DNA from: Acidithiobacillus thiooxidans ATCC 19377
Lineage (GTDB): Bacteria > Pseudomonadota > Gammaproteobacteria > Acidithiobacillales > Acidithiobacillaceae
Reading direction: 5' to 3'
Length of the DNA: 64,000 bases
Assembly: GCF_009662475.1 (NCBI RefSeq)
Contig: NZ_CP045571.1
Coordinates: forward strand, 1,548,501 to 1,612,500
The notes under the pieces are model-generated. The model saw nothing but the letters and a program-made list of their open reading frames with translations, did no database searches and had not been told where the DNA came from. The position numbers and the translations under genes were made by a program. Shown here in pieces: positions 17,339 to 42,585 of the stretch (positions within the stretch are counted from its first letter, which is position 1; each line of letters opens with the position of its first letter).

Positions 17339-17342
17339 TGCC

Positions 17343-23214: not shown

Positions 23215-23319
23215 TGTTAAACAGCGTGCAAAAGTTGCCAGAATTGGGTGGAAAACAGCGTTTAATTTGACCACCTGATAACCTGCCGGATTTGCCGGGA
23301 GGAACCTGGAGTGATTTGC

Positions 23320-24827
23320 ATGGAAACCATAGCCAAAGTGCGCCGTCTGTATCATCTGGACAAAGAGACGGTCAGTCATATTTCTCGAAAAATGAATTTA
23401 TCGCGTGCTACGGTGCGCAAGTATCTGGATCATGTCGGAGATGAACCGAAGTACCCCCAGCGGAAATCCCGACCACGGCCGCAATTGGGAGCTTTTGAGG
23501 CGATCCTGCAGCAATGGCTGGAGACGGATGCGCACTTACCGCGCAAGCAGAAGCGGACCGCACGCAGACTGTTCGAGGGTTTGCAGAAGGCAGGATACCA
23601 GGGGGCCTATGACAGCATTCAACGCTGGGTGAAGGCATGGAAGGCGAACGTTCGCCCTGGTCTGCACCAAGCCTTTGTTCCCCTGAGTTTCCGTCCCGGT
23701 GAAGCGTATCAGTTTGACTGGAGCAGCGAGACGGTGATTCTGGATGGGGTGGCCATGGCGATCAAGGTCGCCCACTTTCGCCTGACTTACAGCCGGATGT
23801 CCTTTGTCCGGGCCTATCCCAGAGAAACCCAGGAGATGGTCTTCGCCGCCCATCAGGAAGCTTTTCTGGCCTTTGAAGGGGTCCCTGAGCGGGGTATTTA
23901 CGATAACCCCAAGACCATTGTGGACGTGGTTTATCATCGTTCCCACAAAGGTCAGGAACGGGATTTCAATCGGCGCTTCCTGGCCCTCATGAACCATTAT
24001 CTGATTCGGCCCACCGCCTGCACGGTCGCTGCCGGATGGGAGAAGGGACAGGTCGAGAATCAGGTCGGCAATATCCGCGAATGGTTTTTACCCCGCTTCC
24101 GCGCTTTGAAACACTGGATCAGCTGAACGCCTGGCTCTGGGAACGCTGTCAGGAGCGGGCACAGAATCATGCACACCCCGAGCAGAAGACGCGGACGATC
24201 TGGGCGGTCTTCCAGGAAGAGAAAGCGCTGCTGCGCCCCTTTCAAGCCACCTTCGATGGCTATGTGGAGGACCGGGTGCGGGTCAAATCGACCTGCCTGA
24301 TATCGGTGGACCGTAATCACTACAGCGTACCCGCAGAATGGGCAGGAGAATGGGTGCGGGCACGGCGCTATGTGGATCGTATCGTGGTATTGATGGAAAG
24401 TGCGGTGATTGCCACCCATGCACGGCGCATGGGGCGGGACAAGACCATCACGGACCCGCAGCACTACCTGCAGGTTCTGGAGCGTAAGCCGGGGGCTTTA
24501 CGTAATGGCTTGCCCTTCCAGAAGCTACCGCGTGCCATCACCCTGGTGCAGGAGCATCTCCAGGCTAAAGCCGGTGGAGATAAGGCCTTTGTGGAAGTCT
24601 TACTGGCGGCCAGAGACCATGGCATGGACATACTGGAGACTGCCTGCGCCATGGCCCTGGAGCAGAAAACCGTTACCGTCACGGTAATCCTCAATCTGGT
24701 ACACCGTCTGACGCACCCGCTGCCACCATCCCCGCAGCAGACTCCAGAAGCCCTGCATCTCAAAGAAGAGCCAACGGCGGATTGCAGTCGCTACGATACC
24801 TTGCGGGGGAAGCCTTATGTCCACTGA
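23320..24827 (+). pseudogene. istA: IS21 transposase IstA, frameshifted
   Basis: The first frame (to 24126) carries an N-terminal HTH (MNLSRATVRKYLDHV) and the DDE residues: Asp in QFDWSSE, Asp in YDNPKTIVD, Glu in EKGQVENQVGN. The reading frame shifts at about 24090, after IREWF. The second frame continues PRFETLDQLNAWLWERC with the C-terminal half, ending over istB. One base change restores a protein of about 500 residues. Without correction the C-terminal domain is lost. It could also be a sequencing error. Confidence 0.85.
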
Positions 24828-26627: not shown

Positions 26628-26918
26628 TCAGCCTGGGCAACCCCCCGTATCTGCCATCTCCCGCAATGCGTTTCGCGTGCGACGTAAATCTTTGCGCACT
26701 GCCAACACTTGCGATTTCACGAAAGCGGTTGCGCCCTGCTCTTGCCCGGCTTTCTCTGCTAATTGCGCCAAAATTAACCAGTAGATTTTCATGGAACGGG
26801 CCACACTTTGGCAGGCATAAGGTTCTGCGCCATCCCGTTCTGCATCATCAGCATATATCCGGACCGTATTGGCCAGCGCAGACCAGCAGGCCGCACTTTG
26901 GGCGGCGTGCATCCCCAT
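26628..26918 (-). CDS. Small helical hypothetical protein (96 aa)
   Basis: 96 residues, Ala-rich and helical, with four cysteines (for example ACWSAL and YACQSV). It lies 43 bp upstream of the GNAT gene on the same strand, so it may be its partner. No family recognised. Confidence 0.5.
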   Translation of the reverse strand: MGMHAAQSAACWSALANTVRIYADDAERDGAEPYACQSVARSMKIYWLILAQLAEKAGQEQGATAFVKSQVLAVRKDLRRTRNALREMADTGGCPG

Positions 26919-27557
26919 ACAATGCGCAGCGGATTTCCTTACAATATTGCCAATAATTTTTACAATATCTGGCGATACATTTTCAACATCTTGTTTATAA
27001 AAATAAAATAGCGTTCAACCTTTTGCGTTTCCTGCATCAAATGCAGGTTTCCCGCGTTCGTCATTCCCATATTGGAAATTCTCACCAATCCGAGTATCAC
27101 CCATAGGTTCAAGGAGTTGGAAGATTCTCATGTTTACAGGTTGATTTGATGGCTTTGTGCATGTTTTTTTCATTTAATGATGTTTACACTCTCTTTACGA
27201 AACATATCTTCATGGTGTACAGTATCGATATGGGCATTTCCACTTTCCGGAGATTGCAAACGCATCATGGTCACCCGCAAGCTGAGATCCATCCCCGAGT
27301 CGCACCAGGGCGCGACTGCGGTACCGCCAGTCTTTCGTCTGCCCGACAAGGACGAGGTGCCAGGGCTCCGTCAAGCTCGCCAGATATAGTAGCAGAGGTT
27401 TTCGCCACTGATTTTAATGGTGGTTTGAAGGGACTATAGTTGGTGGAAATGCGGCATTTTCAGGCGATTTTGGGTGCAGAATCGTGAATGGGGTGGCTGG
27501 CGGACGCAGCTCGCCCTCCGGAGCTATTCTCGGATAGGTAAACCCCGTGGTGGCGCC
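26919..27557. other. AT-rich intergenic region and ISAs1 flank
   Basis: About 640 bp without a convincing gene. A short frame at 27267-27389 (+) starts MVTRKLRSIPESHQG and ends in a charged tail, which distantly recalls small antitoxins, but there is no ribosome site and no partner. The last 100 bp probably belong to the ISAs1-type element downstream. Confidence 0.45.
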
Positions 27558-29313
27558 TCAGTATCCGAGTTGGCGGAGCGTTTTGTGCGCGCTGGCGGCG
27601 AAATCCCGGCACGCTTTGGCGATATTCTTGACGCCAGTGAGACGCATAATGCTCATGGCCAGTTCGCGCAAGGTCGCCATCATATGGGGACCGTTCTGGG
27701 TACGGACTTGGGAGAGGTCCTCGTGGAAAGTCACATCGCGGACATGATGGTTCCGGTTTTCAATTTCCCAGTGACCACGGGCCAAGCCCAACAGATTTTC
27801 GGGCGTGGCACGATCCGGGGTCAGGCTGGTGAGTCCGAAGGCATAATCATCCCGAATCGTGCCCTCTTTGCTGTTGATGGTGGAGCGTTGGATCAGGAAA
27901 GCTTGTCCGACATGCGGAAAATGGAGGCCGGTTGCCCGGGTGGCGACAATGATTTTGCGGTATTCAAAGCGGCCATGCCCGACCTCTGTGGTTTCAGCGT
28001 TGAGGGGGAAAATCGCCCCAAGGGAGGCACGTCAGACGGTCGCGGAGTTTGCGTTGATTGCCTTTGACGGCGGTGAAGAGATAATCGGCTTTCTTGTCTT
28101 CGACGAGGAAGCGGGCGGTCTCCCGCTGGGTATGCAGGGCATCGGCGGTGACGACCTTGCCCGCGATGTTGACGTCCTGGAGCAGGTTGCGCAGTTCTGG
28201 AATTTCGTTGGTTTTCCGGGCGGTTTGTTTTTGCGCGATGGTGACCCCCTGTCCATGCAGGAAGGCGCTGAGCAGATGCACTTGAGCGCCCTCTGCGCGT
28301 ACGGCCCCTTTGAGGACTTTGCCATCGACGGCCACCGCTTCAAAGCCAGCCGTACCCAGTAGCCAGGCGCCGATCGCCGCATCCAGCGCCTCCACATCGG
28401 CCCCTTGCAAGACGCGCCGGATGGTCGGTTCGGAGGGGGCGACGTAGCGTTTGGTTTTGGGATCGAATCGGGCGCGGATGCGCTTCAGTTGGGCCTGGGT
28501 CAGCCGACCGGCCCACTCGGCGATGGCGGCATAACTTTCGGCCTGCGTCAGGACGGAGGCCACGGCCACCGTCAGGATGGCCGGGAGGGGATGCTGCTTG
28601 CCCAGTTTGCTGCGGGTATCGGGAAGGCGGAAAAAGATTTGGCGCAAGCCTTCCATTTGCGCGTCGCTCAACGTCACGGTTTGCATGGGGGTATGGGTCC
28701 ATTCGAGTTGGGGCTGCGGCTGGGCCAACCAGGCCCGCGCCTGTGGATGGAGAGGAAAGAGCAGAAGACGTTTAGGTTGGCCGTGGTGGACATAGCCACC
28801 ACCGGGACGGCGGGCGAAGCCCTTGGTTCCGCCGACATCCACCCAGTTGGCGGCCCGGTAGCAGGCACCGGTAAAACGGGGGGATTCCACAAAGGTCTCG
28901 GCCAGCACGATGGGATGCCCATAGACGGATTGCCAGTCCGCAGAGAGCCTGTGCAGGTTCAGCGCCATAATACGGGACGCCAGATTCGGGAAGGATTCTC
29001 CGGGCAGGATCAGAAAACGGGCATTGTTGGCGATGAGATGCAAGCGCTGGCGGCGCAAGATCCAGGACCAGCCGATCCACCGATCCCGCGCCTGGCATTG
29101 AAAAGCGGCGGCATGCCAGCCCAGTAACGCCACCCAGCGACCATCGAGCGTAGCCACATAGCGCAGGTTACGGCCCGCCAACGTGCGAAAGCCCCGGTAG
29201 TGATACGTTTGCATCAGCGTATTCCAGCGTTCCCGCTCCGTGGGCAGGATGGGTCGCACCTGAACACGGTGCAGGCTGGCTTGCTGCTTTTCGGTGAGAG
29301 TTGGGACTTCCAT
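27558..29313 (-). pseudogene. DUF4338 (DruA-like)-ISAs1 transposase fusion, frameshifted
   Basis: Two joined parts. The N-terminal 220 residues match the DUF4338 domain also found in Druantia DruA (HLIANNARFLILPG, LAETFVESPRFTGACYRAAN). The C-terminal part is an ISAs1-type transposase (PDTRSKLGKQHPLPAIL, AVDGKVLKGA, TADALHTQRETA). At about 28010 the frame breaks after LPWGD. The next frame resumes with GHGRFEYRKI and continues to GHWEIENRNHHVRDVTF and a stop at 27558. The transposase is therefore broken. The flanks have related AATGCGG sequences, but I could not fix the IS ends. Confidence 0.82.
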
Positions 29314-29361
29314 GCGGCAAAAGCTACCGCATTCATCCTGAGAAGTCCAGAAAAACCCTTT

Positions 29362-30462
29362 GTGCTACTTCATCAGCAGCTTAGATGGAAGGTTGACAGG
29401 GCCCTGGACGAGGTGCTGTTTCGGGAAATGCTGGAAGCCTACGTCACCAGACGCCGGGGTGCGCTGCGGCATCAGCACAAGAGCGTGGATCGAGATACCC
29501 GCATCATCCTGGAGTTCCTTCAGTTCAGTGGCAAGGCGCCGTGGTACTGGACCGAAGAAGGCTTTGAAAAGTGGAGTTATGAGATCGGCGTGGTACGCAC
29601 CCTGGCCGTGAGTTCCCAGCGGCACTACCAGGGTGCAATCCGGGGTTTTCTCGCCTACCTTATAGAGAACGTCAAATTCCGCAATGTCGTACGCCGGGAA
29701 TACGGCGTCGATCTGGTGCAGATCTGCCATCCAGAGAACTGCATCCCCCATATTTCCGAGCGGGAACTGACCCGCGAACGGCCGGCACTAACCCATGCGG
29801 AGATCAACCAGTTTTTTAACGCTTATGATACTGCCATTACGGAAGCCGCCCGCTTTAAGACTAAGGACCTGCGCCCCCTGCAGCGGGACAAGGCGATGTT
29901 TTATCTGACCTATGCGGCGGGGCTGCGGGCTTCCGAAATCATCGGGTTGAATGTCTCTTCCTTCCAGCCCAATCCGAACATCCCCGAATTAGGGGAATAC
30001 GGGTTTATTTCTGCCTGGGGTAAGGGCAGCCGGGGCAGTGGCCCGAAGCATCGGATGGTACCGGTCACACATTTACCCGTTTCTGCCTTGCTGGCGTGGT
30101 ACATTCAGGAAATACGCCCGCTGTTTATGGACATGTCAGATGCCAATGACCAGGCGCTTTTTTTCTCGGAGCGTGGCCGCCGCATCGCCTTATCGACCTT
30201 TGAGGCGCGTTTTCAGCATGGAATCGCCCTGGCCGGACTGGAGGATCGGGGGTTTACGCCGCATTGCCTCCGGCACTCTTCGGTCACGCATGAGGATCTG
30301 CGCTTCAGTGGGGAAATGGTACGCCGCAAGCACGGGCACACCTATCAGGCGACAACCCAGGGATATATGCACCACCCCGATGAATTCGTAAACGAGGAAA
30401 TCACCCGAGCGATAGGCTCACAACTGGACGCTTTACTGGGCAAGGATAAGGATAAGGAATGA
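29362..30462 (+). CDS. Tyrosine recombinase, 5' end disturbed by IS
   Basis: About 366 residues with a full catalytic set: AAGLRASEIIGLN (Arg), TPHCLRHSSVTH (HxxR), KHGHTYQATTQGYMHH (His and Tyr). I take the GTG at 29362. Open frame continues upstream, but that part is the transposase gene read backwards, so the original N-terminus was probably cut by the ISAs1 insertion. The stop overlaps the HTH gene (ATGA). It is the first gene of a three-gene set that differs from the two larger recombinase modules in this window. Confidence 0.8.
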   Translation: MLLHQQLRWKVDRALDEVLFREMLEAYVTRRRGALRHQHKSVDRDTRIILEFLQFSGKAPWYWTEEGFEKWSYEIGVVRTLAVSSQRHYQGAIRGFLAYLIENVKFRNVVRREYGVDLVQICHPENCIPHISERELTRERPALTHAEINQFFNAYDTAITEAARFKTKDLRPLQRDKAMFYLTYAAGLRASEIIGLNVSSFQPNPNIPELGEYGFISAWGKGSRGSGPKHRMVPVTHLPVSALLAWYIQEIRPLFMDMSDANDQALFFSERGRRIALSTFEARFQHGIALAGLEDRGFTPHCLRHSSVTHEDLRFSGEMVRRKHGHTYQATTQGYMHHPDEFVNEEITRAIGSQLDALLGKDKDKE

Positions 30463-30896
30463 GTAGATTGGCGACACTCAATGCACTGGAATGGCGCGTG
30501 CGCGTGATGATGGCCGAACGCCACATCAAAACCATTACCGAACTGCGCAAGCAATTGGAGGAGGTGGGGGTCGAGATTTCCACGACACAACTCAGTCGGA
30601 TAGTGGATGCCCTTCCGACCCGCCTCAGCTCGGAAGTCCTGGCGGGACTGACGACGGTTTTGCGTTGTGATATCGGCGATCTGATACGGGTAGCCCGGCG
30701 CCGTCCACCGCCCACGGAACAGGACGCTGATGACCGTCACCCTTCTGACACCGTTTCCAACGCGCGCTCCACCGACGACGCGACACCGGATTCATCGCCC
30801 AAACGAGGGATACGCCGGACGCGGGAACCGATAAGCGCGAATGTCACAGGACCAAAAGTCACGGCCCTCCCCATCCCTGAGCGGCCCAAACGTTGA
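30459..30896 (+). CDS. Small Cro/C1-type HTH protein
   Basis: 145 residues. The first 75 form a Cro/XRE-like HTH (MMAERHIKTITELRKQLEE, then STTQLSRIVDALP, then LRCDIGDLIRV). The remaining 70 are a disordered, Pro/Ser/Asp-rich tail. It overlaps the recombinase stop by four bases and ends 9 bp before the zinc-ribbon gene, so the three are one operon. It may act as a directionality or regulatory factor of the recombinase set. Confidence 0.72.
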   Translation: MSRLATLNALEWRVRVMMAERHIKTITELRKQLEEVGVEISTTQLSRIVDALPTRLSSEVLAGLTTVLRCDIGDLIRVARRRPPPTEQDADDRHPSDTVSNARSTDDATPDSSPKRGIRRTREPISANVTGPKVTALPIPERPKR

Positions 30897-30905
30897 GCAC
30901 CAACC

Positions 30906-32714
30906 ATGACTCCCGGCAAAGCGCATAAAACCTGCGGCTGTTGTGGTCGGTCGATGGCCAAGGCCGTCGCCGTAACGGACGGCGTGGCCTATTGCGCGAC
31001 CTGCTATGCCCGCGAGTTCAAAAAAGTGCCTTGCGCCAAGTGCGGAAAAACCATGCGTTCGCTGGGCGGTAAAACACCGGCGACCTGTCGTTCCTGCAAG
31101 GCCCAGGATCGGCACTGTGTCCGTTGTGGTAAACCCGTGCCCCGCGCCGGCCTAACAGTAGAGGAAGGGGTGGTGTGCCCCTCGTGTGTACGTTATTACA
31201 AAGAACCCCAGCCTTGCGCGGTCTGTGGACAGAAAAGCCTGCGGCTCTCTCGGGATTTTCAGGAGGGGTTCACGGAGCCCGTCTGCAACCATTGTCGGTG
31301 CAAAAGTTATATTACCTGTCCTTCCTGTGGCAAACATCGGCGTCCGGTCGGGCCGGATGGACAGGGGCGCATTGTCTGCAAGCAATGCCTGGAACGCGCA
31401 GGCCCCTTCATCTGCCCGCAATGCGGTCACGAAGGTCGTGCCCACAGCAAAACCCGCTGCGAGGCGTGCTACTGGAAAGATGCCGTCGACAAGCGCATGC
31501 ATAGTATCGTAGCACTCTTGTCCCGTCCCTGGGCCAAAGAAGCCTTCTCAGGGTTTACGCTGGAATTGCGGGAACGCGTCGGTGCCCAGCCAGCGGCTAT
31601 ACGCCTGGAAAAGTATTTTTTGTACTTCGCGAAGCTCGATACACTGTTCACCGCCCCCGGCGACATCACCGCCGAAAAGCTCATTATGGCTCTGGGGCGG
31701 GAAGGATTGCGCCGTTACGCGGTGCCACAGAGTTATCTGATACGCCATGGCATCGTACCCGCCTTTAGCGATGAAACCCTGCAGGCGGCCAGCGCCGAAG
31801 CCGCGCAGATCGCATTACTGACTGCATCCGAAGGTCAGTGGTATTCGGGGTTGCTACGGCGTTTTCACGCGCACCTTGCAGAAATCAACGCCCGCTACCG
31901 GACCCGGGGGTGGCAAGGCAAGCAACAGCGTTTTGTACCGCGCACTGTGACCACTGCGCTACGGGCGGCGAAAATATTTCTGGATTTTCTGGAGGTCGGC
32001 CCGGCGGCGGGGGTACAACAGATTCAGCAGATGCAACTGGACCGTTTTTTGGTGGAGCACCCCGGTTATCGGGATAATATCCGCGCCTTCGTGCGTTTTC
32101 TGAATCGCAAGGAAAAACTCTTCCGCAAACTCAAGATCGAGTCGGTGCAACGCAATCTGCCCAAAGGCCTCATTCTGGATCGGGATCGCTATGCCAGCCT
32201 GCTCCGCACCTGGTTCAACCCCGCAGACGATGTACTCAAGGCCTCCTTGATCAGCACGCTCATGCTGCTGTATGCACAACCCGCCAAACGTCTCGTCCGG
32301 TTGCGCTTAACCGATCTTGCGCAGGGTGCCACGGATGGGATGTATCGGGTGATTTTCGGGCACACCGAGATTACCCTGGACCCGCGCGTGGGCCATCTCC
32401 TGGCCCGCTATTTGGAGCGGCGTCGCGCGCTGGCGACCATGGAAGAGACCGATGCCACCGACTGGCTCTTTCCGGGACGTCGGCATGGTGGCCACCTGCA
32501 TGAAGCCATTGTCAGCTATTACCTCAAAAAACAGGGGGTGACGGCGGATAGTCTCTTTACGACCGCCATCTACTACGCCTATCTCGGCGGGCTGCGCCAC
32601 CCCAAGGTGTTGGTCAAGGCATTTGGGATCACCGACTACACGGCCGTTAAATATCTGGAGATGATTGATCCGCGTCTGACTGCCGAGGTGGAGGCCAGAG
32701 TTGCCAGCCGATAG
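30906..32714 (+). CDS. Zinc-ribbon protein with degenerate tyrosine-recombinase fold
   Basis: 602 residues. The first 200 contain about 12 CxxC pairs (CGCC, CATC, CAKC, CRSC, CVRC, CPSC, CAVC, CNHC, CPSC, CKQC, CPQC, CEAC), enough for roughly six zinc ribbons. Residues 300-600 look like a recombinase: a SAM-like helical domain, then LLYAQPAKRLVRLRLTDL in the box I position and DYTAVKYLEM at the end. I see no HxxR box; the corresponding segment reads FTTAIYYAYLGG. It is probably a catalytically reduced partner of the recombinase two genes upstream. Confidence 0.7.
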   Translation: MTPGKAHKTCGCCGRSMAKAVAVTDGVAYCATCYAREFKKVPCAKCGKTMRSLGGKTPATCRSCKAQDRHCVRCGKPVPRAGLTVEEGVVCPSCVRYYKEPQPCAVCGQKSLRLSRDFQEGFTEPVCNHCRCKSYITCPSCGKHRRPVGPDGQGRIVCKQCLERAGPFICPQCGHEGRAHSKTRCEACYWKDAVDKRMHSIVALLSRPWAKEAFSGFTLELRERVGAQPAAIRLEKYFLYFAKLDTLFTAPGDITAEKLIMALGREGLRRYAVPQSYLIRHGIVPAFSDETLQAASAEAAQIALLTASEGQWYSGLLRRFHAHLAEINARYRTRGWQGKQQRFVPRTVTTALRAAKIFLDFLEVGPAAGVQQIQQMQLDRFLVEHPGYRDNIRAFVRFLNRKEKLFRKLKIESVQRNLPKGLILDRDRYASLLRTWFNPADDVLKASLISTLMLLYAQPAKRLVRLRLTDLAQGATDGMYRVIFGHTEITLDPRVGHLLARYLERRRALATMEETDATDWLFPGRRHGGHLHEAIVSYYLKKQGVTADSLFTTAIYYAYLGGLRHPKVLVKAFGITDYTAVKYLEMIDPRLTAEVEARVASR

Positions 32715-32970
32715 GACGTGGTGGCTGTATCTGATCGAGTGCCGGGGTGGCGGCATATACACCGGCATCGCGCTGGATGTCGAAAAACGCTATCAGCAGC
32801 ATGTGACCGGCAAGGGGGCCAGATATACGCGCATGAATCCACCGGTACGACTGCTCGCCCGCCGAGCCTATCCTGACCATCGGAGTGCGGCGCAAGCAGA
32901 ACGGCAAATCAAGCAGTTAGCACCGCTGGAAAAAAGACAATTGGCCATCGCCTTGCACAATCACGGATGA
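32701..32970 (+). CDS. GIY-YIG nuclease-family protein (UPF0213-like)
   Basis: 89 residues with WLYLIECRGGGIYTGIA (the GIY-YIG strands), DVEKRYQQHVTGKGARYT and a terminal helix ending QIKQLAPLEKRQLA. Size and motifs match the short UPF0213/YhbQ group. The TTG start at 32701 lies inside the end of the zinc-ribbon gene (14-bp overlap); no ATG or GTG is available upstream of the motif. Biochemical role of the group is poorly known. Confidence 0.82.
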   Translation: MPADRTWWLYLIECRGGGIYTGIALDVEKRYQQHVTGKGARYTRMNPPVRLLARRAYPDHRSAAQAERQIKQLAPLEKRQLAIALHNHG

Positions 32971-33140
32971 CCTCTATTGGGCAAATCAGAATTAGACAGC
33001 GAGCCCCGTAATCTCTGTCAGCAATGCTGCATCAGCTTTCTTTCCCTATGCAGCATGAGTCGCAATGCGTGTTAGGATTACAAAATTACTGCCAAAAAAA
33101 CGATATATTCTCCAAGGGAAATTTTGGGCGGTATACTGTA

Positions 33141-33169
33141 TTGATCTTAATTGTTTTTTGTGTTATACT
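33141..33169 (+). promoter_or_regulatory. Sigma70-type promoter of AT-rich cassette
   Basis: TTGATC, 17-bp spacer, TATACT, in strongly AT-rich DNA about 80 bp before the 59-residue gene. The long leader has an AGGAG site at 33234. Confidence 0.72.
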
Positions 33170-33251
33170 GTCCTCTGTTTATGTTGGGTTATTGGCAGTT
33201 AATTTAACTCATCGACTAGTCGTTTTTCTATTTAGGAGAGGTATATATATC

Positions 33252-33431
33252 ATGACGAACATTGAATTAGCAAAAAGGAGACTTTTCGACCACAGCGCTT
33301 TAGACCTATCGAATTTCAAGATTTATCCTGGGACAAGTCGTGATGTAACCCCGGACAAATTCGCAGAGGAGATTAACAAGATGTTATCTCAGATAGATGC
33401 GGAAGACTTTGAGGAAATGCATTTGGAGTAA
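33252..33431 (+). CDS. Small hypothetical protein (59 aa), first gene of two-gene cassette
   Basis: 59 residues starting MTNIELAKRRLFDHSALDL, acidic at the end (DAEDFEEMHLE). The ATG follows an AGGAG at about 13 bases. Open frame continues upstream but lies over the promoter, so it is excluded. The gene is 3 bp before the 191-residue gene, suggesting a coupled pair like an antitoxin or adaptor with its effector. No family recognised. GC content is lower than in the flanking recombinase genes, a sign of separate origin. Confidence 0.6.
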   Translation: MTNIELAKRRLFDHSALDLSNFKIYPGTSRDVTPDKFAEEINKMLSQIDAEDFEEMHLE

Positions 33432-33434
33432 CTC

Positions 33435-34010
33435 ATGCCTTCGGACTATAAAAAGCTGTACGAATTCTGCCAAGAACTAACGCCAGATATACGGCGTAAC
33501 GACATAAAAAACAAGGTGTTAGATATTTGCGATCAAAGAAGCGTTCGTGTAATAATAACCACCATGAATACAGCTATAATGAGGGGCGCGTTTTTAGGGC
33601 CGAAATCAGGGCATCCCTACGTTGAAAATTCCGGGGTGCCTTACATAGTCCTCGCCAGAGGATTAAATTATTGCTGGGAGCGCTTTATTTTTATCAAGGA
33701 ACTGATGCATTTCTTTGATAAGGAAGAAGAGAAAACAACAAGCGTAGTTTTTGAACCGCTATTAGATTCATTTTCCTCGCCGTCTTCGTTAGAGGAACGC
33801 TCCCCCATTTATCTCTCCGAAATAAAGGCAGTCTGGATGGCAATTGCTTGCTTTTGCCCAGAAGAAAATCGACTAAAGTTAAAAAATGACCTTTTAAACG
33901 GGCATATAGATGAATATGGAATTGCGCTGAAGCTCAAAATGCCAGCGCAGCATATCAGGCACCTGATGTCCGATAAGTTCGAAGCCATTATAGGCAGTTT
34001 GACCGAGTGA
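33435..34010 (+). CDS. ImmA/IrrE-like protein with degenerate metallopeptidase motif
   Basis: 191 residues. The central segment RFIFIKELMHFFD aligns with the RFTLAHELGH motif of ImmA/IrrE (DUF955) peptidases, but the first His of HExxH is Lys (KELMH). Glu and the second His remain. The C-terminal part has an HTH-like stretch (YGIALKLKMPAQHIRHLM), as in phage ImmA-type proteins. With the small gene before it, this could be an antirepressor-like or toxin-antitoxin unit. Whether it can still bind zinc is doubtful. Confidence 0.6.
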   Translation: MPSDYKKLYEFCQELTPDIRRNDIKNKVLDICDQRSVRVIITTMNTAIMRGAFLGPKSGHPYVENSGVPYIVLARGLNYCWERFIFIKELMHFFDKEEEKTTSVVFEPLLDSFSSPSSLEERSPIYLSEIKAVWMAIACFCPEENRLKLKNDLLNGHIDEYGIALKLKMPAQHIRHLMSDKFEAIIGSLTE

Positions 34011-34031
34011 CAACCGCTCAGGCTACAACAG

Positions 34032-34844
34032 CTAGGCAGCGAGTTCCCGTAACTTCTGCGAGGCGCCGCTGGATGTGATGTTCACCAATTGCGCCAACTC
34101 CTCCAACTCCTCAGCATAGATTTTATTGACCTTGGGGATGGTCTGGGTGAATACGATACATCGTTCTTTTACCAGAAACCCAGACTCTACGGCCCGCTGG
34201 AAACTGAGCAGGGCATCATTGACCTTTTGCTGGATGTCTTTCTTCGCTCCATGAAACGCAATGGTTTTGAATCCCATGCGCGGTTCTTCCGTGATGGCGT
34301 ACGGAAAGGTAGTGATAAACGGCTTGGCCCCTGGCAAATCAAAGGACACTTCAACCTCTCGGGAGAAGCCCTTGCGATACACCAGTTCCGACGTGAGTAA
34401 GGCATCCTCAATCCATTCAGAGAAGGGTTTCTCTGGCGGCTTAGTCATCGTGCCGATCAGTCGATCTTCAAGGCTATCCAGCATAATCTTCACATCGTGG
34501 AATTCCGGCCATTCCTCGGTGCGCGGTGCGGTTGCCACAATTTGTCGTTCCTGTGCAGCAAGGCTGGCAAACAACGTATCAACGAGGGGGCTTTCGGAGC
34601 TCCAGGCGCCGTCCCAGGTGGCGAGGTCTTGTAACCACTGCAACCACTCCCCGAACACCCAGTGCTCCTGAATCTGGCGAGGCGCGATCGCCCGATAATA
34701 ATTCAGATCAATGAAACCATTCCGCTTCATTCCGATGGCGCGCACATGGGTCTGGCCCGCGGCCCTAGCCAACAGCGCGAAGTTGCGGCCCTCCTGGCGC
34801 TCTGGATGCTCTCGATACTGCAAGAGGCGGTATTCCACGATCAT
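34032..34844 (-). CDS. Partner protein of HipA-like kinase (DUF3037-like N-terminus)
   Basis: 270 residues. The N-terminus (VEYRLLQYREHPERQEGRNFALL) resembles the start of DUF3037 proteins, which are often next to HipA-like kinase genes. The rest is unrecognised and mostly alpha/beta. Its ATG overlaps the kinase stop by four bases, so the pair is translationally coupled. It could be an antitoxin-like or regulatory partner. The family link is weak. Confidence 0.5.
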   Translation of the reverse strand: MIVEYRLLQYREHPERQEGRNFALLARAAGQTHVRAIGMKRNGFIDLNYYRAIAPRQIQEHWVFGEWLQWLQDLATWDGAWSSESPLVDTLFASLAAQERQIVATAPRTEEWPEFHDVKIMLDSLEDRLIGTMTKPPEKPFSEWIEDALLTSELVYRKGFSREVEVSFDLPGAKPFITTFPYAITEEPRMGFKTIAFHGAKKDIQQKVNDALLSFQRAVESGFLVKERCIVFTQTIPKVNKIYAEELEELAQLVNITSSGASQKLRELAA

Positions 34845-35560
34845 GGGCGACTCCTGATGAAACTGGCATACCCCTGCACGATGGCGGGAAGTGCTGCTTT
34901 CCGCTTAATCATTGCGTCAGCGAGGAATTGTTGCAACTCTTCGGACACAGCACGGAAGGGTTTACCCATCCCGCAGCACTCCCGGATATAGCCATCAGGC
35001 AATGCCACGATGCGGCTGATCCAGCCTTCCAGGAAAACAGCCTGGACACGCCCATAAAAGGGATGGCGACGCACGATGAGTTCCCCCTCGGCCAATTTAC
35101 GGATGCTATTCGTCGGATTGCTTTCGACCCCAAGCAGGGCATGGCTGTGATCGAAAGCGGCGAAGAACCGCACATGAGGAGTGACCAGGGCCGCCTTCAG
35201 ATTGCGGGCGCGGTCGCCATTACCAATGAAGAGGTCGTAGGCCAGCAGGGCCGCTACCCGCTGAGGATAGCGTTGCGCCACAGAATCCAGCTGGTTTTCC
35301 AGCACATCGGGCAGATTGATGCCGGGCGAGTGCAGCATCAGGCTCGCGTAGGTGGGACCGTCGCCGGTGCTGGTGAGCACGCCATCGGCCACCGGCACAT
35401 GCAGCGTCTGAGCCAGCCGCAAGGCCACATACTCGTTGTAGACGCAGTGTGGGGCTTCTTCTCCGTCGAATTTAAGAGTGGCGCCCAGGGTACAGAGGGC
35501 CGGCGCGGTAATACCCGATTTGCGGGTACTGGAGATACGGCGAATTTTATATGTTTCCAT
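34841..35560 (-). CDS. HipA-like serine/threonine kinase
   Basis: 239 residues. LLAYDLFIGNGDRARNLKAAL matches the HipA catalytic loop (NxDRxxxN), and FFAAFDHSHALLG matches the metal-binding Asp segment. It is shorter than E. coli HipA (440) and resembles single-domain HipA-like kinases. I take the ATG at 35560; an in-frame GTG at 35578 is also possible. HipA toxins phosphorylate tRNA synthetases or other targets. No HipB-type HTH lies beside it; instead a 270-residue protein follows in the operon. A tandem 9-bp repeat sits about 140 bp upstream. Confidence 0.72.
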   Translation of the reverse strand: METYKIRRISSTRKSGITAPALCTLGATLKFDGEEAPHCVYNEYVALRLAQTLHVPVADGVLTSTGDGPTYASLMLHSPGINLPDVLENQLDSVAQRYPQRVAALLAYDLFIGNGDRARNLKAALVTPHVRFFAAFDHSHALLGVESNPTNSIRKLAEGELIVRRHPFYGRVQAVFLEGWISRIVALPDGYIRECCGMGKPFRAVSEELQQFLADAMIKRKAALPAIVQGYASFIRSRP

Positions 35561-35701
35561 CACGGCATCTTGCCCCACACCTCCAATCCCGTACTTTGCT
35601 TATGCGTGAATATAACCGCCAACAAACTAAACCGCCGAGCAGCAGTACCGCGATACGACACTGAATTCCGGCACTAATTCTGCTACTGGAAACATATCCA
35701 T

Positions 35702-35746
35702 CTCTACCATCTCTACCATCTCTACCATCTCTACCATCTCTACCAA
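35702..35746. repeat. Five tandem 9-bp repeats (CTCTACCAT)
   Basis: Five consecutive units, the last with one change (CTCTACCAA). The array is upstream of the HipA-like gene and downstream of the MFS gene. On the minus strand it reads GATGGTAGA repeats and keeps a frame open, but no gene is supported. It could be an iteron-like operator or a variable-number repeat. Confidence 0.85.
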
Positions 35747-35867
35747 CTAGGCCACACCTAAAGCGCCCGCATGCCAAGAGAGTTTCCCAGTCTACTAGAC
35801 CCGCCCGCCAGAGGATTTTGTAGAATTATAAAGCCAATGAGTATCCCAGACATAGATGCCACTCTGT

Positions 35868-37250
35868 CTATCGGTGAAGACGGAGCATACTTGCGAAGGA
35901 TGAGATTGCAGATATGGCGCAGGCAAGACCAAACACATAGATAATGAAATGCATACCCGAACTATCGGCTAGGCGACCGTTTAAAAGAACAATAACCATA
36001 GCGACTATCGCGGCACCAATAGACTGTCCAGCAGTTCTGGCGGTCGATAGAACGCCAGAAGCTGTGACTGCTCGATTCTTCGTTACATTCAAGAACATTT
36101 CTTTGTTGTTTGGCGGAAGAAAAAAGCCGTACCCAATCCCACAAGCCGTTATGCGCCAAAGAAAGTTTCCGACTTCGGCATTCTTTGGAAGCAAAACAAA
36201 TGATCCTAGCGCCAGACAGAAGACTACTATACCTGCTGTAGATATTTTCGTTGGGTTAAACCGATTAGAAAGCCTTCCAGCTATTGGGGCACATATGGCT
36301 ACAGCAATAGGCCACGGCGTAATAATGAAAGCTGACTTCAGGACGCTATACGAGTATGTGTGTTGCAATACAAACGGCAGGGCAACCAGGGCTATCCCTT
36401 GAGATACGAACATCGTGACAGATGAGATAACTGCAAATGAATATCGGCGGGACCAGAAGATGTCCAGAGGCAGAAGTGGATTTTTTGTCTTTACCTGTAT
36501 GAAAACGAACGCGCCCAGCAGCACAACAGAGGTGATCAATGATAATAGGACGATACTACTGTTCCACCGACCTATTCGATCGACAGTAACCACCATCAAA
36601 CCAAATGCAGTCGCAGAGGTGATGGCGCCTAGCCAGTCAAAGCCCTTTTCAGTCCGTGAGTCAGTTCCCAAGGCTGTAAATGACAAGGTAATGGCAACCA
36701 CCCCAAGAGGGATATTGATGTAGAATAGCCACGGCCAGGAGAGATATGAAATGATCAAGCCGCCCAATGCTGGCCCAATAGCCGTGCCAACAGCGAACGC
36801 CAAAGCATTGAGCCCGAATATGGTTCCTAACGAACTGGGTGGAAATATCACGCGATACATACCAAGACCGACACTTATCATCACCGCATAGCTGATCCCC
36901 TGAATGACCCTCATGGCGACTAGCATGGTGAAAGTTGACGATAGGCCGCAGCCTAGCGATGAGAGAGTAAACAAGACCATTCCTACTGTATAGAAACGTC
37001 GTTCCCCTACCCTCGACCCTAGTGACGCACTAATCAGCATTGTTGCTGCGCTAGCCACTAGATACCCGTTAGCAACCCAAATTATGGATGCGGGATCCAC
37101 CTGCAATGCATGAGAAATGGATGGCAAAGCGATATTGACAATAGAGCTATCTATAGCCGACATCAATACGCCTATCAAAACAGCCGTCGCTGCAAAATAA
37201 CGCCGAGGAAGTTCAAAACCAAGTTCATCTGAATCAGCATTTAACGACAT
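35868..37250 (-). CDS. MFS drug-type transporter (DHA2/EmrB-QacA group)
   Basis: 460 residues with about 14 hydrophobic segments. The start region SAIDSSIVNIALPSI is the DHA2 motif D1. GSRVGERRFYTVG corresponds to motif A and AIGPALGGLIISY to motif C. Its ATG overlaps the end of the GAPDH-like gene by 17 bp, so it is the last gene of a prpD-type operon. The likely role is export of a product or substrate of that pathway. Substrate unknown. Confidence 0.85.
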   Translation of the reverse strand: MSLNADSDELGFELPRRYFAATAVLIGVLMSAIDSSIVNIALPSISHALQVDPASIIWVANGYLVASAATMLISASLGSRVGERRFYTVGMVLFTLSSLGCGLSSTFTMLVAMRVIQGISYAVMISVGLGMYRVIFPPSSLGTIFGLNALAFAVGTAIGPALGGLIISYLSWPWLFYINIPLGVVAITLSFTALGTDSRTEKGFDWLGAITSATAFGLMVVTVDRIGRWNSSIVLLSLITSVVLLGAFVFIQVKTKNPLLPLDIFWSRRYSFAVISSVTMFVSQGIALVALPFVLQHTYSYSVLKSAFIITPWPIAVAICAPIAGRLSNRFNPTKISTAGIVVFCLALGSFVLLPKNAEVGNFLWRITACGIGYGFFLPPNNKEMFLNVTKNRAVTASGVLSTARTAGQSIGAAIVAMVIVLLNGRLADSSGMHFIIYVFGLACAISAISSFASMLRLHR

Positions 37251-38046
37251 ATTGTGATTCCGTTGTAATGTCTGTAAGAGATACGGTATTTACCAACGGC
37301 GCCCAAGGCATCACCTTGTGTTGGCTCTGAGTGATTTGGGAAAAACTCGGGCGTAGGTTATCCCGGACATCTTGCATGCGGCCTTCGAAAGAGCGGGTGC
37401 CGAGTACTCCGTTGGGCGTGTCAGGATGCACGATGTCCGTTTCTATCGACACAATATTTTTGGCGTTGAGATCAATGGACTGAAGAGCTTCGATTATCAC
37501 GCGCAGAGAGGCGTGCATTCCAGTCGTTTGGCAAGAACCAAGGCAGTATGTGCCTACGCCAACAACTTTGCGATTAATTGTAGGGATGTCATTCTCTGAA
37601 AGATCAGCCAGACAACCGTAGATGCTCGGCAAATCATTTGCCTCAGCAACCCCTAAAATGGTGCCCGCCAACCCATTCAACTTGAGCGCAACGGGGCTTT
37701 TCTCTGCAATATCGGTCTTGTTGGTTGCTAGAAAAGCGATATCGAAATGTTCTGATATATCCGGATTGTCCATTCGGAGGTCATAAAAATAAAAACGGAT
37801 GCCCCGACCTTGAATTCTCAACATGTTGTCATTCATGACCTCGATCTGGGATTGTATGCCGGGACGTGCTATAGCCAGTCGTGCGACGATGCCATCAATC
37901 GGACGTAGGCTAGCATAATGTTTATCGGTCGGAGGCGCATTGGTAATAACAGCAGTAATTTCGAAGCCATCCTTTTCTGGGATGTTGTCTATGAGAAGGT
38001 TGGACCCTATCTCAGCACCACAACCAACAAGAATTGCTGTTTTCAT
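37234..38046 (-). CDS. GAPDH-like NAD(P)-dependent dehydrogenase
   Basis: 270 residues. The N-terminal strand AILVGCGAEIGSNLL is a nucleotide-binding loop. GTYCLGSCQTTGMHASLRVI corresponds to the catalytic SCTTN segment of glyceraldehyde-3-phosphate dehydrogenases, with the Cys kept. FEGRMQDVRDNLRPS resembles the later GAPDH motif. It is about 60 residues shorter than true GAPDH and the Asn after TT is Gly, so the substrate probably differs. It sits between prpD and an MFS gene and overlaps the latter, which suggests a small catabolic or biosynthetic pathway. Confidence 0.6.
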   Translation of the reverse strand: MKTAILVGCGAEIGSNLLIDNIPEKDGFEITAVITNAPPTDKHYASLRPIDGIVARLAIARPGIQSQIEVMNDNMLRIQGRGIRFYFYDLRMDNPDISEHFDIAFLATNKTDIAEKSPVALKLNGLAGTILGVAEANDLPSIYGCLADLSENDIPTINRKVVGVGTYCLGSCQTTGMHASLRVIIEALQSIDLNAKNIVSIETDIVHPDTPNGVLGTRSFEGRMQDVRDNLRPSFSQITQSQHKVMPWAPLVNTVSLTDITTESQYVVKC

Positions 38047-38087
38047 ATAATTAATCCTAGATAGAAAAACGAATCCTGCTATATATA

Positions 38088-39521
38088 TTAGATATTTCTG
38101 ATGGAGAACAGATGAAGAAAGTCAATGATTGACATATCGTCGAGTTTTGTCGCTGTGGTCATTATATCCACCAACTCATCAGATTTGACATTAACCGAAC
38201 TTCCTGAAACATTCTTGCGGAACTTTTTGATTAGGGCTGGAAAGCAGTCATTACGCCGCCTGACGTGTCCGAGTGGGTATTCGATAACCTCAGAAATCTC
38301 TTCCGCCATTCCCGTACACTTCAAGTGAAGGGCGTTCGGAATCGCTCGTTTCTCAGGGTCGTAATAACTCTCAGTGAAGCTGATCCGCTCGATACAGTTA
38401 ATTTTGTCACGCAGAGAGTGAATCTGAGGGTCAGAAGCCATAGGTTCATGAAAATCGTTAATGGTTAAATCGCCTGTGCAGAGAGCAACAGCAATCATAT
38501 ACTGAAGGCAATGATCACGATCAGCTGAATTGTTAAGCGTGCCCGACTTGTCAATGATCTGAATTGCTGGGCGCGTCGTTTCAACGCGGATATATTCGAT
38601 TTGCGCTATCGATGAGCCGACAGCTTCTATCCTCTCTCGAAGCCGTATTGCCGCTTCTACTGCCGTCTGTGCATGGTACTCTGCAGGGTTTGGTACCTTG
38701 AAAAGGATGTTCCTGATAACAAAATCTGACAGATCACGCGGGAGAGTAAGTGCGTTGCCCCTAAGAACTGCATCGTTAAACCCCCAGCGTTTCGTGGTCA
38801 GCGCTGTCGGATAGCCCATTTCGCCTGTTTGCGCGAATAGCGCCAGTTGAATGCCTCGTGCCGTTGCGTCCCCCGCTGCCCAAGACTTGCGGGTACCGGC
38901 ATTGGGTGCATGGCGATACGTTCGGAGGGGATGGCCATCTATGACAGCATTAGAAAGTGCGCTTAGCGCTTGCTCCTTCGGAAGATTCAGGAGTTTCGAT
39001 GCCGCAATTGTCGATGCAATCTTCACCAGAACAACATGATCGATTCCAAGTGCATTGAAACAGTTTTCTAAGCACAGGATTCCATGAATCTCATAAGCTC
39101 GCACAATCATATTCAGTACATCGGCCATGTTGATCGGGTTGACATCATCCCTTTGGAGATTCTGCCAAGCGGCAGCGGCTAGGATCGCACCCAAGTTATC
39201 TGATGGGTGACCCCATTCTTGAGCGAGCCAAGTATCATTGAACTCCAGCCAGCGGACCATGGAACCTATGTGGAAAGAGGCTTCTATTGGGCCTAGTTGG
39301 ATCGATGTACCTATGACTGGAACTCCTTGGTCGTTTTTGCTTAACTGCGCGCTACCAAGTAGCTTCATACAGTCACGATCCTCTGATGCGGCGATCGCAC
39401 AGCCAATTGAGTCCATTAGACAGAAGCGCGCCATGCCAAGAGTATCTTCATTAAAGCTTGACTGGCTATAAGCGTAATCAATTAATGCGCCCATAACTTC
39501 ATCAAATTTTGTATCCGTCAT
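38088..39521 (-). CDS. MmgE/PrpD family protein (2-methylcitrate dehydratase-like)
   Basis: 477 residues. Family motifs are clear: LDxxGCAI-type start (MDSIGCAIAAS), GHPSDNLGAILAAA, RKSWAAGDATARGIQLA, KVPNPAEYHAQTAVEAA and NSADRDHCLQYMIAVAL. The length matches PrpD (about 480). Family members dehydrate 2-methylcitrate; the same fold includes cis-aconitate decarboxylase. Neither prpB nor prpC is next to it, so the propionate cycle is not supported and another hydroxyacid substrate is likely. It heads a three-gene minus-strand operon. Confidence 0.88.
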   Translation of the reverse strand: MTDTKFDEVMGALIDYAYSQSSFNEDTLGMARFCLMDSIGCAIAASEDRDCMKLLGSAQLSKNDQGVPVIGTSIQLGPIEASFHIGSMVRWLEFNDTWLAQEWGHPSDNLGAILAAAAWQNLQRDDVNPINMADVLNMIVRAYEIHGILCLENCFNALGIDHVVLVKIASTIAASKLLNLPKEQALSALSNAVIDGHPLRTYRHAPNAGTRKSWAAGDATARGIQLALFAQTGEMGYPTALTTKRWGFNDAVLRGNALTLPRDLSDFVIRNILFKVPNPAEYHAQTAVEAAIRLRERIEAVGSSIAQIEYIRVETTRPAIQIIDKSGTLNNSADRDHCLQYMIAVALCTGDLTINDFHEPMASDPQIHSLRDKINCIERISFTESYYDPEKRAIPNALHLKCTGMAEEISEVIEYPLGHVRRRNDCFPALIKKFRKNVSGSSVNVKSDELVDIMTTATKLDDMSIIDFLHLFSIRNI

Positions 39522-39775
39522 GCTAATCCTTGATAAATCAAAGCCACAGTTTGAAAAGTTCAGAAATAAAAAAAACGGAGGCCGACCTCACGCTAATGGT
39601 TGTGATCAATGAGTAAGATTAAACTCTATACTGTGGCACAGCATAGTGCTAACGAATAATGTTGGCATGATCATCGAAATAATCGATGGCAGAAGGGGTT
39701 TTGTAGGTTCCTCGCTATTTTGAGTAGCTAAAAGGTAGAACTGTGGTCATGACGATGTGTTGACAAGAGACTGAG

Positions 39776-39960
39776 ATGAACCAAGAACATTTGCTCTCTC
39801 TTGCCCTGGGGTTTGTGCCACCGTGGCTGGTAGACCGAGTGACTTTTTCGGTGCAGTGAAAGCGGCTGGACCTGCACGTCGACTTTTTTCTCGCGGCAAC
39901 CGGTTCCCTTGCTCCGTCTGCGGTCAGGAGTGTCCCATCTGGAGCAAGTGCGCTCCATGC
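39776..39960 (+). pseudogene. ISL3-family transposase N-terminal remnant
   Basis: The frame from the ATG reads EHLLSLALGFVPPWLVDRV, then a stop, then KRLDLHVDFF. A shift to the next frame gives SRGNRFPCSVCGQECPIW, the zinc-finger start of ISL3 transposases. The rest of the transposase is absent. It has one stop and one frameshift. Confidence 0.68.
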
Positions 39961-40003
39961 CCGCCAGCCTACACACACTCTAATTCACCATTCGGGCCGT
40001 GGT

Positions 40004-40037
40004 TCGCAATATCTGAGCATTCGCAATATCTGAGCAT
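40004..40037. repeat. 17-bp tandem duplication
   Basis: TTCGCAATATCTGAGCA occurs twice in direct succession, followed by the partial copy TTCGC. It lies in decayed IS DNA; significance unknown. Confidence 0.85.
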
Positions 40038-40196
40038 TCGCTATACGGAAGTAACCGCTAACTGAGCGGAGTATTTTTCCGGGTCGGGCGGGCGGGGGTG
40101 AAACGCTTACAGATTCTGATCTGGGGGCGAGACATGGCAGCGGAAACGGGCAGGAAGCGTAGGGTAAGCAATGGGATGGACTGAGCGAGGTGGTTT

Positions 40197-40300
40197 GGCG
40201 GCAGGCGGCGAGCGGGCTGTGCGTGGCTGAGTTTTGCCGGCGCGAGCAGGTGAGCACGGGGAGTTTCTTCCGCTGGCGTGTATTGCTGGCGGGGGCGCCC
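40197..40300 (+). pseudogene. IS66-type TnpA fragment
   Basis: About 35 codons read EVVWRQAASGLCVAEFCRRE, then STGSFFRWR, matching the HTH of IS66 OrfA proteins. It is directly joined to an IS3 fragment, so one element has inserted or recombined into the other. Confidence 0.6.
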
Positions 40301-40326
40301 TCCGAGACAAACAGGCCGCCTGGCAA

Positions 40327-40632
40327 GTACGTCCCTGGCTTATCGGTTGCATATGGAACGACTGGCTGATGCGGGCATTGCTGCCTCTGTCGGAAGCGCC
40401 GGGGACAGCTACGACAATGCCCTGGCAGACCATCAACGGGCTCTACAAAGTGGAAGTGATCCATCATCTGGGGCCTTGGAAAAGTCGTGCGGCCGTGGAG
40501 ATGGCCACTCTGGAATGGGTGCATTGGTACAATCACCATCGTCTCCTCGGACCATTAGGGTATACCCCTCCCGCAGAAGCTGAGGCAAACTATCAGGCGC
40601 AGTTGCTGCAGCAAGCCACCAAGGCGGCTTGA
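40327..40632 (+). pseudogene. IS3-family OrfB C-terminal remnant
   Basis: The first frame gives MERLADAGIAASVGS and GDSYDNALAD (the catalytic Asn/Glu region of IS3). At about 40425 the frame changes to TINGLYKVEVIHHLGPW, EWVHWYNHHRLLGPLGY and a stop at 40632. The break removes the catalytic Glu codon (ALAET normally). Only the last third of OrfB remains. Confidence 0.75.
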
Positions 40633-40783
40633 GGAACAAAAAACACCTTCCACGATATAGGGGGCGGTTCAGTTGGTCATACGGTGAATCAATGAGTTAT
40701 TATGGGCTTTGCCGGAGCGTTGTGGCCGCTGCGTCAGCACTTCCCCAAGGGAACGGACAGTTAGTAGATGCGAGAGGACTGGG

Positions 40784-41668
40784 ATGAACATAAATGAAAT
40801 CAAGGCATTTATAGCGGTCGTAGAAACTCGGAGCATAACCCAGGCGGCGATTCGTCTAAATCGGGTTCAATCGAGCATCTCTCATAGGATAAAGAACTTA
40901 GAAAACAGCCTTGGCGTTAGCCTTTTGGATCGACAGATAGATGGAATTATCCCAACGGCACAAGGAAAAGTTTTATATGACTATGCAATACAGATATTGA
41001 ACCTTGTGCAGGACTGCCAGAACAAAATCATTTCCCAAAGAGATTACGAAAGTATTAGGCTTGGTCTAATTGAGTGTCTTCCACCATACATCGTCAATTC
41101 CCTTATAGACCTAATATACACTTATGGTCACCGGATAGACATCTCTGTCGGCAATACGATCAACCTACTTGAAGCGTATAACAAGAATGAATTAGATATG
41201 GTTATTGTTGGTTCTGGTTTTTCACATACAGATCATGGTTGTCGAGTACCACTGTTCTCTGACGACCTTGTCGTCGTAACCGAAAAATCAGCTCAACCGA
41301 TTGATGAATTTTGTGATCTTGATAAAAGAATATTTTTAATAAGCAGCAGGAAAGCAGCGTCGTTGAGGAATTTTAACATTTTATTTGAAGAAACGGGGAT
41401 CGCGCCTAGGCAAATTGTCGAGTGTGGATCATACCCCATACTTTTTTCCAATATTGCCTCAGGGAAAGGTGTTTCCTTGGTCCTACGCTGCTCTATCAGC
41501 CGAGCGACGCATGACCAAATCAAGATCCATAATCTTCATGGCAGATTTAGCAAATTCCAGATCGAGCTTCTGTATCGTAAAAATCTCCCATATCTAGACG
41601 TCCCGAAGCTTCGCAAACTGATCGTATCTATTTTTCAGGATAAACGGCTGACACACATAGGATATTGA
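40784..41668 (+). CDS. LysR-family transcriptional regulator
   Basis: 294 residues. The N-terminal winged HTH is INEIKAFIAVVETRSITQAA through RVQSSISHRIKNLE, SLGVSLLDR and the linker helix. The effector domain follows with the usual alpha/beta pattern (KNELDMVIVGSG). I take the ATG at 40784 with GAGGACTGGG upstream; codons before it come from IS debris. LysR regulators normally sit divergent to their targets. The nearest metabolic operon is prpD-gap-like-MFS on the other strand, now about 1.2 kb away because of IS remnants, so it is the likely target. Confidence 0.85.
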   Translation: MNINEIKAFIAVVETRSITQAAIRLNRVQSSISHRIKNLENSLGVSLLDRQIDGIIPTAQGKVLYDYAIQILNLVQDCQNKIISQRDYESIRLGLIECLPPYIVNSLIDLIYTYGHRIDISVGNTINLLEAYNKNELDMVIVGSGFSHTDHGCRVPLFSDDLVVVTEKSAQPIDEFCDLDKRIFLISSRKAASLRNFNILFEETGIAPRQIVECGSYPILFSNIASGKGVSLVLRCSISRATHDQIKIHNLHGRFSKFQIELLYRKNLPYLDVPKLRKLIVSIFQDKRLTHIGY

Positions 41669-41733
41669 TTGCAATAAAAGCGGCTCAGTTACTCCATTCA
41701 TCAACCGAGGAACCTTATGAACTGATCATGAGC

Positions 41734-42149
41734 ATGAAAAATAGTCGTAGTCTAGAAGTATCTGGGAGGGATGCATATACCAGCAGTTTAGCTTTGCGGT
41801 TAGCGAGTTCGAAGAAATTATCTCTTCCATTCGCATCATGAACCCCCTATTCTCTCATGATGGGGGACTCGCTCACACACCGCTCCCAGTCGCATTCTCT
41901 GGTTGGCGTAATCGGTCCACAGACGATGTCTCATATGGTGGCGACTCCGCAACTGTGACCCACGTTTTTTATCTTCCCCCCGAGGTGCTGCGCTGGACCG
42001 GTGACGGTAAAACCTCCGGCGAGATCGCCAACATCCTGCAAATCTCAGAGCGCACGGTAAATTTTCATACCAGCAAAGCCATCACCAAGCTGCAGGTGAA
42101 CAACAAAACCGCAGCAGTTCTCCAAGCCTCTATGCTGGGTCTTCTGTGA
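41734..42149 (+). pseudogene. Decayed LuxR-type regulator
   Basis: The start MKNSRSLEV continues, after a frame change, as IYQQFSFAVSEFEEIISSI, resembling a LuxR-type N-terminus. The middle (autoinducer domain) is almost wholly missing. The C-terminal HTH is preserved: EVLRWTGDGKTSGEIANIL and ISERTVNFH, ending LQASMLGLL. Because most of the sensor domain is deleted it cannot respond to acyl-homoserine lactone. It may still produce a short DNA-binding protein from the ATG at 41838. Confidence 0.7.
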
Positions 42150-42464
42150 TTCCGACCTGTGACACTGCGCAACTACAAGCACCCCAATCTCCTTCTGTGT
42201 TTTTGTCCTGTTTGCCCCTCTGCCCCCGGAGGTAATATTGGAAGATTCCGCCCAATATTGTAATTTCCCAGTATTTTGACCAGCATATCGCTCTCTCGAC
42301 CATTTTTGCCACCACGAAAAACCGGTCTCACTGACCAGTTCCATGCTTTGGGGTGTTACAAAATCGCCGGACACGGAAGCCATGGAAGGGAAAGAAAAGC
42401 CTCCGACAAGTATACCGACGAGGAGAATAGCTACCCTTTTTTTCGATATCCACATAACATCCAT
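42045..42464 (-). CDS. Putative small exported protein
   Basis: An open frame of about 139 codons. It starts with a convincing signal peptide (WISKKRVAILLVGILVGGFS, ending SMASV). The region after it (SWWQKWSRERYAG) has no recognisable motif, and the last 35 codons run antisense to the LuxR remnant. Start choice is unclear (ATGs at 42479, 42464, 42455). It may be a real small secreted protein or chance. Confidence 0.35.
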   Translation of the reverse strand: MDVMWISKKRVAILLVGILVGGFSFPSMASVSGDFVTPQSMELVSETGFSWWQKWSRERYAGQNTGKLQYWAESSNITSGGRGANRTKTQKEIGVLVVAQCHRSESQKTQHRGLENCCGFVVHLQLGDGFAGMKIYRAL

Positions 42465-42585
42465 CCCATAACGGCGCATTAAAGAAAAAAATAATCATCA
42501 CGTTGCATGGAAATAACCCGCAAAATAATTGTCTTATCCCGTAACAGATCATATGATAAAGGAAAGTTCCACAGGACGGGGTAAC

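Follow-up and report, generated by a model that had tools for sequence, protein, structure and literature searches.

Gene content of the locus

What kind of system is encoded by the genes at 29362-32970 of the window, the 64,000-nucleotide stretch of Acidithiobacillus thiooxidans ATCC 19377 analysed here? A preliminary description had recognised a trio of a tyrosine recombinase (YRec), a small HTH protein and a zinc-ribbon protein, and had proposed that they could form an undescribed class of mobile or rearrangement system. Open reading frames and Pfam matches bore out the trio, in which the zinc-ribbon protein (602 aa) is followed by a GIY-YIG nuclease, the four genes forming a single tight run. 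As had also been noted, the genes overlap or abut: the YRec frame ends at 30462, overlapping the HTH ATG at 30459; the HTH frame ends at 30896, ahead of the zinc-ribbon gene start at 30906; and the end of the latter at 32714 overlaps the GIY-YIG frame, which starts at 32701.

This order is that of Tsy. Faure et al. (2023, PMC10293859) described Tsy as a transposon from Zoogloea sp. LCSB751 (ZooTsy) with the order YRec-HTH-TnsF-GIY-YIG, which they reconstituted and whose transposition they showed in E. coli. There, TnsF is the target selector, the insertion site is the Walker B region of comM, and the GIY-YIG gene, on a branch near Tn7, is non-essential. Several traits of Tsy are found in the window: the YRec R-HxxR-H-Y catalytic set, which is also present in intact homologues, an HTH gene between YRec and TnsF, a multi-zinc TnsF, a downstream GIY-YIG gene, and no Tn7 genes when TnsB and TniQ were sought. 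Further traits of Tsy are a catalytically active TnsF with tandem core-binding domains and a C-terminal recombinase fold, on which see below, and transposition by way of a circular intermediate. The usual site comM, which we take as usual and not as defining, is not used by the window copy. Given that gene order and domains match and that a 94% identical sister splits comM, the trio and the GIY-YIG gene are, with high confidence, the core of a Tsy transposon that landed outside comM and whose YRec was cut by an insertion sequence (IS). The gene set is of a kind known since 2023, so that the term undescribed falls; the new details include the site outside comM and the IS-split recombinase.

Ends of the element and its insertion site

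Searching 17 genomes of the genus, we found TnsF matches in four, the window's own included. Presence is patchy, with full-length copies in two: the window's own and G371, whose copy is 94% identical. G375 and G381 carry shorter TnsF forms (open frames of 513-519 aa). The G371 copy splits comM just after Walker B (5' part at G371:C1:458729-459637, 3' part at 481323-481892), and the joined flanks give a full-length ComM of 503 aa (...GILFLDEMPEFPR...). Identity between the window and this sister copy starts exactly at the comM break (window 26935 = L019 8632). This left boundary, together with the matching right end, delimits the element (Table 1), whose ends could thus be mapped through another genome, as the preliminary description had suggested. 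The left end has a single match in its own genome. PMC10293859 quotes the ZooTsy end2 as ...AATCCCAGTC, to which the right end of the window element, ...TTTCCCAGTA, is similar.

Excision of the element in silico yields an uninterrupted target ORF of 170 codons, which, read from its sequence, appears to begin like a signal peptide. A search of the 17 genus genomes with its 3' fragment returned no sequence other than the fragment, plasmids gave no match to it, and a search of the other genus genomes with the left-flank DNA gave matches only in the first ~120 query bases, none of them adjoining the element. Since no uninterrupted target ORF was found, the empty site is read from the joined frame. 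Four comM-like query strings were tried against this target and rejected, shuffles being as good in 0.068, 0.087, 0.139 and 0.41 of cases; the target shows no significant Walker-B-like motif (shuffle fractions 0.07-0.41). The comM gene of the same genome is intact (2761852-2763321). Both the site outside comM and the want of such a motif weigh against the Tsy reading.

In the mechanism that we propose, YRec would cut and join DNA at the ends bearing CAATATT and CCCAGT, the HTH protein would assist or regulate it, and TnsF, with its zinc ribbons and degenerate recombinase fold, would take part in target choice; the window copy would have inserted into a small ORF of unknown function rather than into comM.

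Table 1. Features of the element and its target, with positions in the window
Feature	Position	Strand	Evidence or remark
Interrupted target ORF, 3' part	26628..26934	-	Joined frame; no Pfam family at cut-off
Whole Tsy element	26935..42273	+	15,339 bp; ends match the G371 sister copy in comM; joining the flanks makes the ORF whole in either genome
Left end (end1) and YRec leader, starts TTCCTTACAATATTGCC	26935..27266	+	90% identity to G371, beginning at the first base past comM
First 31 YRec codons, severed by the IS	27267..27359	+	Collinear with the intact G371 YRec
ISAs1-family IS	27360..29407	-	2,048 bp; ORF 27994-29313 on the minus strand; NF033564 1.2e-34, DruA 1.5e-26
YRec remainder (GLR, HCLRH, GH, Y), including the second duplication copy	29408..30462	+	Phage_integrase 1.8e-15 (Pfam); 91% identical to G371 YRec
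HTH protein, Cro/C1 type	30459..30896	+	HTH_26 2e-10 (Pfam)
TnsF	30906..32714	+	12-CxxC zinc-ribbon region (30933-31469), then a helical region and, at the C-terminus, a tyrosine-recombinase fold
GIY-YIG nuclease	32701..32970	+	PF01541 2.6e-13
Cargo ORF	33024..33431	+	No Pfam family
Cargo ORF	33435..34010	+	No Pfam family
DUF3037-like partner of the HipA-like protein	34032..34844	-	L057 homologue: 27% identity, E 3e-34
HipA-like protein	34841..35578	-	L057 homologue: 52% identity, E 3e-76; HipA families sub-threshold
Further cargo: MFS transporter, 270-aa ORF, MmgE/PrpD, 184-aa ORF, LysR regulator	35868..41668		
Right end (end2), ends ...AATTTCCCAGTA	42200..42273	+	Matches the G371 right end next to the comM 3' part (89% identity, E 3e-20)
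Interrupted target ORF, 5' part	42274..42479	-	Joins in frame with 26934-26628

Three other gene groups of the window may be recorded here. To the right of the element, a RecG-like helicase, a TnpB-like protein and an MmeI/Eco57I-like methylase gene stand in a row (42529-49685). Another set, of 410, 661 and 721 aa, lies at 13191-18575, where only the 410-aa member has an integrase match, below threshold, and at 6936-8560 a RiPP enzyme of the MbnB/TglH/ChrH type adjoins a DUF2063 protein.

An insertion sequence within the recombinase gene

The recombinase had at first been taken to start at 29362. This start is an artefact, since the position lies within an IS that splits YRec after codon 31, and the true first codons are found on the other side of the IS (Table 1). 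The IS has terminal repeats CCAGGGC..GTCAA and is flanked by the duplication ACGAGGTG at 27352-27359 and 29408-29415. Because YRec is severed from its first 31 codons, the window copy is probably poorly mobile or immobile. The severed part is poorly conserved among the aligned YRecs, and so a shorter protein, even a working one, may still be made. The ORF of the IS joins a DruA-like domain to an ISAs1 transposase, and the transposase frame apparently ends early, short of the left IS end.

Copies that carry a GIY-YIG gene

We compared 31 TnsF-bearing loci, among which GIY-YIG was found only in the window, L019, L057, L076 and, in part and at a contig edge, L077. The four others all abut comM at their left end, after Walker B in L057, L076 and L077; the window copy, in contrast, lies outside comM. 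A DUF3037-like/HipA-like gene pair follows the core in all four of these copies that can be assessed (window 34032-35578, L019 12635-14163, L057 8030-9591 and L076 12029-13572), L077 ending too early for this, and tblastn gave no match to the pair at the remaining compared loci, Variovorax included. Both names have sub-threshold Pfam support, that for DUF3037 coming from a match of the L057 homologue. The pair is possibly a conserved cargo or accessory module.

Distribution of TnsF and alternative readings

A tblastn search against plasmids returned 102 records with relatives. Of the eight examined first, three have TnsA, a DDE transposase and TniB upstream (with TniQ annotated in one of them), two have an HTH gene and an integrase immediately upstream, one has an integrase and one IS66, and one record is unannotated. 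In the family of G422, 3 of 74 genomes gave matches, two full-length (already found) and one partial, and 50 pattern matches in viral contigs included no relative. As judged by tblastn across the 31 loci, which include those that supplied the queries and hence self-matches, YRec, HTH and TnsF occur together in 15, so that the trio does recur as a unit. TnsF is accompanied by TnsB and/or TniQ in 12, three of which also have a partial YRec-like match, and by neither set in four (L010, L066, L068 and L082). The comparison leaves aside L018 and L071-L074, which have short flanks, and duplicate, shorter records of loci already included. A ComM match adjoining the trio was absent by tblastn from the Variovorax loci L004 and L080 and from the actinobacterial trios; L081 has a ComM-like match at 9341-10555, beyond its TnsF. 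L004 and L080 are two different YRec-HTH-TnsF trios on one Variovorax megaplasmid.

The window genes might be the remnant of a Tn7-like Tn6022 transposon that lost tnsABC-tniQ and kept TnsF. In plasmids of Acidovorax, Acinetobacter and Pseudomonas, TnsF homologues do come after Tn7-type genes, the shorter TnsF forms occur in the same genus, and an ORF outside the element (23311-24126) has a sub-threshold TnsD match (19.3 vs 32.4 bits). However, the window gave no tblastn match to TnsB or TniQ, the two Tn7 genes used as queries, it does have YRec, HTH and GIY-YIG, and the ends of the element agree with those of the sister in comM. Moreover, the window TnsF has a C-terminal part that Tn6022 TnsF lacks according to PMC10293859. 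We consider such a remnant very unlikely.

An undescribed class of rearrangement system could appeal to TnsF itself, for which no family of Pfam, PADLOC or PHROGs was matched at E up to 1, and to an insertion site that is not comM. The gene order is, however, the one given for ZooTsy in PMC10293859, which refutes the proposal in its strong form, and the 94% sister sits in comM; little credence is left to it. That these are host-domesticated recombinase genes and not a transposon is barely credible: YRec is interrupted, and the window's own genome gives one match to TnsF and one to the left end, but the ends are precise, ORFs are restored at two different sites, cargo lies between the ends, and presence is patchy, with no conservation at one locus seen across the genus.

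The recombinase fold of TnsF and the question of catalysis

We return to TnsF as a component of Tsy. The preliminary description had counted about 12 CxxC pairs; there are exactly 12, within residues 10-188, and all 24 cysteines are invariant in an alignment of three proteins, the most distant of which is 35% identical. A search of PDB sequences gave nine matches (E 0.013 to 0.077), to LIM, zinc-ribbon or TRIM25 entries, and NCBIfam a weak, sub-threshold match to XerD (E 0.0016, residues 392-545). Aligning the profile of nine TnsF proteins with that of eight tyrosine recombinases placed residues 322-601 on YRec (hhalign E 5e-8).

The AlphaFold model of TnsF is of moderate quality (mean pLDDT 75, pTM 0.48; about 34-71 in the C-terminal part), and its putative first core-binding domain is helical. 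Foldseek paired the model with XerH and XerA (E 6e-6 and 8e-6), and VIA gave a Z of 13.5 and an rmsd of 4.0 over 169 residues against 5jk0_B; residues 309-602 match XerH and other Xer proteins. Cre and the Tn1549 integrase are also matched, whole-model TM-scores being low (about 0.2), and so are YopR and MrpR, which we take to be regulators and not recombinases.

From the profile alignment we read the columns of the first Arg, HxxR, the third His and Tyr. In the window TnsF, the first Arg is replaced by P459, HxxR by D..F and the third His by I, while the Tyr column holds Y583; the suggestion that the recombinase-like domain lacks HxxR is confirmed, and no full catalytic site was found. With the trio also recurring in other genomes, neither of the outcomes that the preliminary description had named as refuting it came about. 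In all six aligned non-actinobacterial proteins (window, G371, L057, G422, G400 and Variovorax), Tyr is kept and HxxR and the third His are replaced; the first Arg is replaced in five of the six (P, T, R, Q, Q, T, the Arg being that of L057). Three actinobacterial TnsF-like proteins do not keep Tyr; where HxxR has its Arg, they too have Arg. TnsF thus appears to have the recombinase fold and to lack the usual catalytic set.

PMC10293859 calls Tsy TnsF catalytically active and its catalytic activity essential, and a ZooTnsF mutant, Y584F, was made, which fits the window Y583 by number only. The apparent loss of HxxR and the third His stands in tension with this account; in view of that reported requirement, we treat the two as a conflict and do not propose a correction. 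As a tentative and rather doubtful extension, based on alignment, Tsy TnsF might be a pseudo-recombinase, with Tyr and without HxxR and the third His, that serves YRec as a DNA-bound zinc-ribbon target selector; the loss of catalysis of Tn6022 TnsF might then have begun inside Tsy, and Tsy might use sites beyond comM. This doubt about the catalytic status of Tsy TnsF is relevant to the question of how TnsF was borrowed by Tn7-like elements for target selection.

Comparison with known systems

RIT and Tn554 TnpABC also combine a tyrosine recombinase with partner genes; these partners are not known to include an HTH protein, a zinc-ribbon TnsF or a GIY-YIG nuclease. The gamma-mobile-trio was considered and rejected, GmtY scoring 15.6 bits against an NCBIfam cut-off of 340. 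The actinobacterial plasmid trios L008, L009 and L081 share the order YRec-HTH-TnsF-like with the window, but have no GIY-YIG match, and the three actinobacterial proteins aligned differ from the window TnsF in the Tyr and HxxR-Arg columns.

Tn6022-like Tn7 transposons have a homologous TnsF with a multi-zinc N-terminus and target comM. They differ from the window in their TnsB and TniQ genes and in the C-terminal part of TnsF, which is longer here. At L020/L054 (G375:C1:2137693-2232555), the pieces of comM lie about 93 kb apart and TnsB, TniQ and TnsF are close to the 3' one, which likely makes this a large Tn6022-like element. In L023 (6771-8795), L058 and L059, a YRec-like stretch and zinc ribbons are joined to TniQ or stand beside it, an arrangement like the TniQ-TnsF fusion mentioned in PMC10293859.

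ZooTsy, as described in PMC10293859, shares with the window copy its gene order and the CCCAGT at end2, and sister copies of the window element sit, like it, in comM after Walker B. By contrast, the window copy lies outside comM, has an IS within YRec and carries the DUF3037-like/HipA-like pair downstream of the core; its TnsF, in our alignment, is without HxxR and the third His, whereas the paper calls Tsy TnsF active. What the locus adds is not a new class, but exact Tsy ends with restored target ORFs at two sites, comM and non-comM, within one genus.
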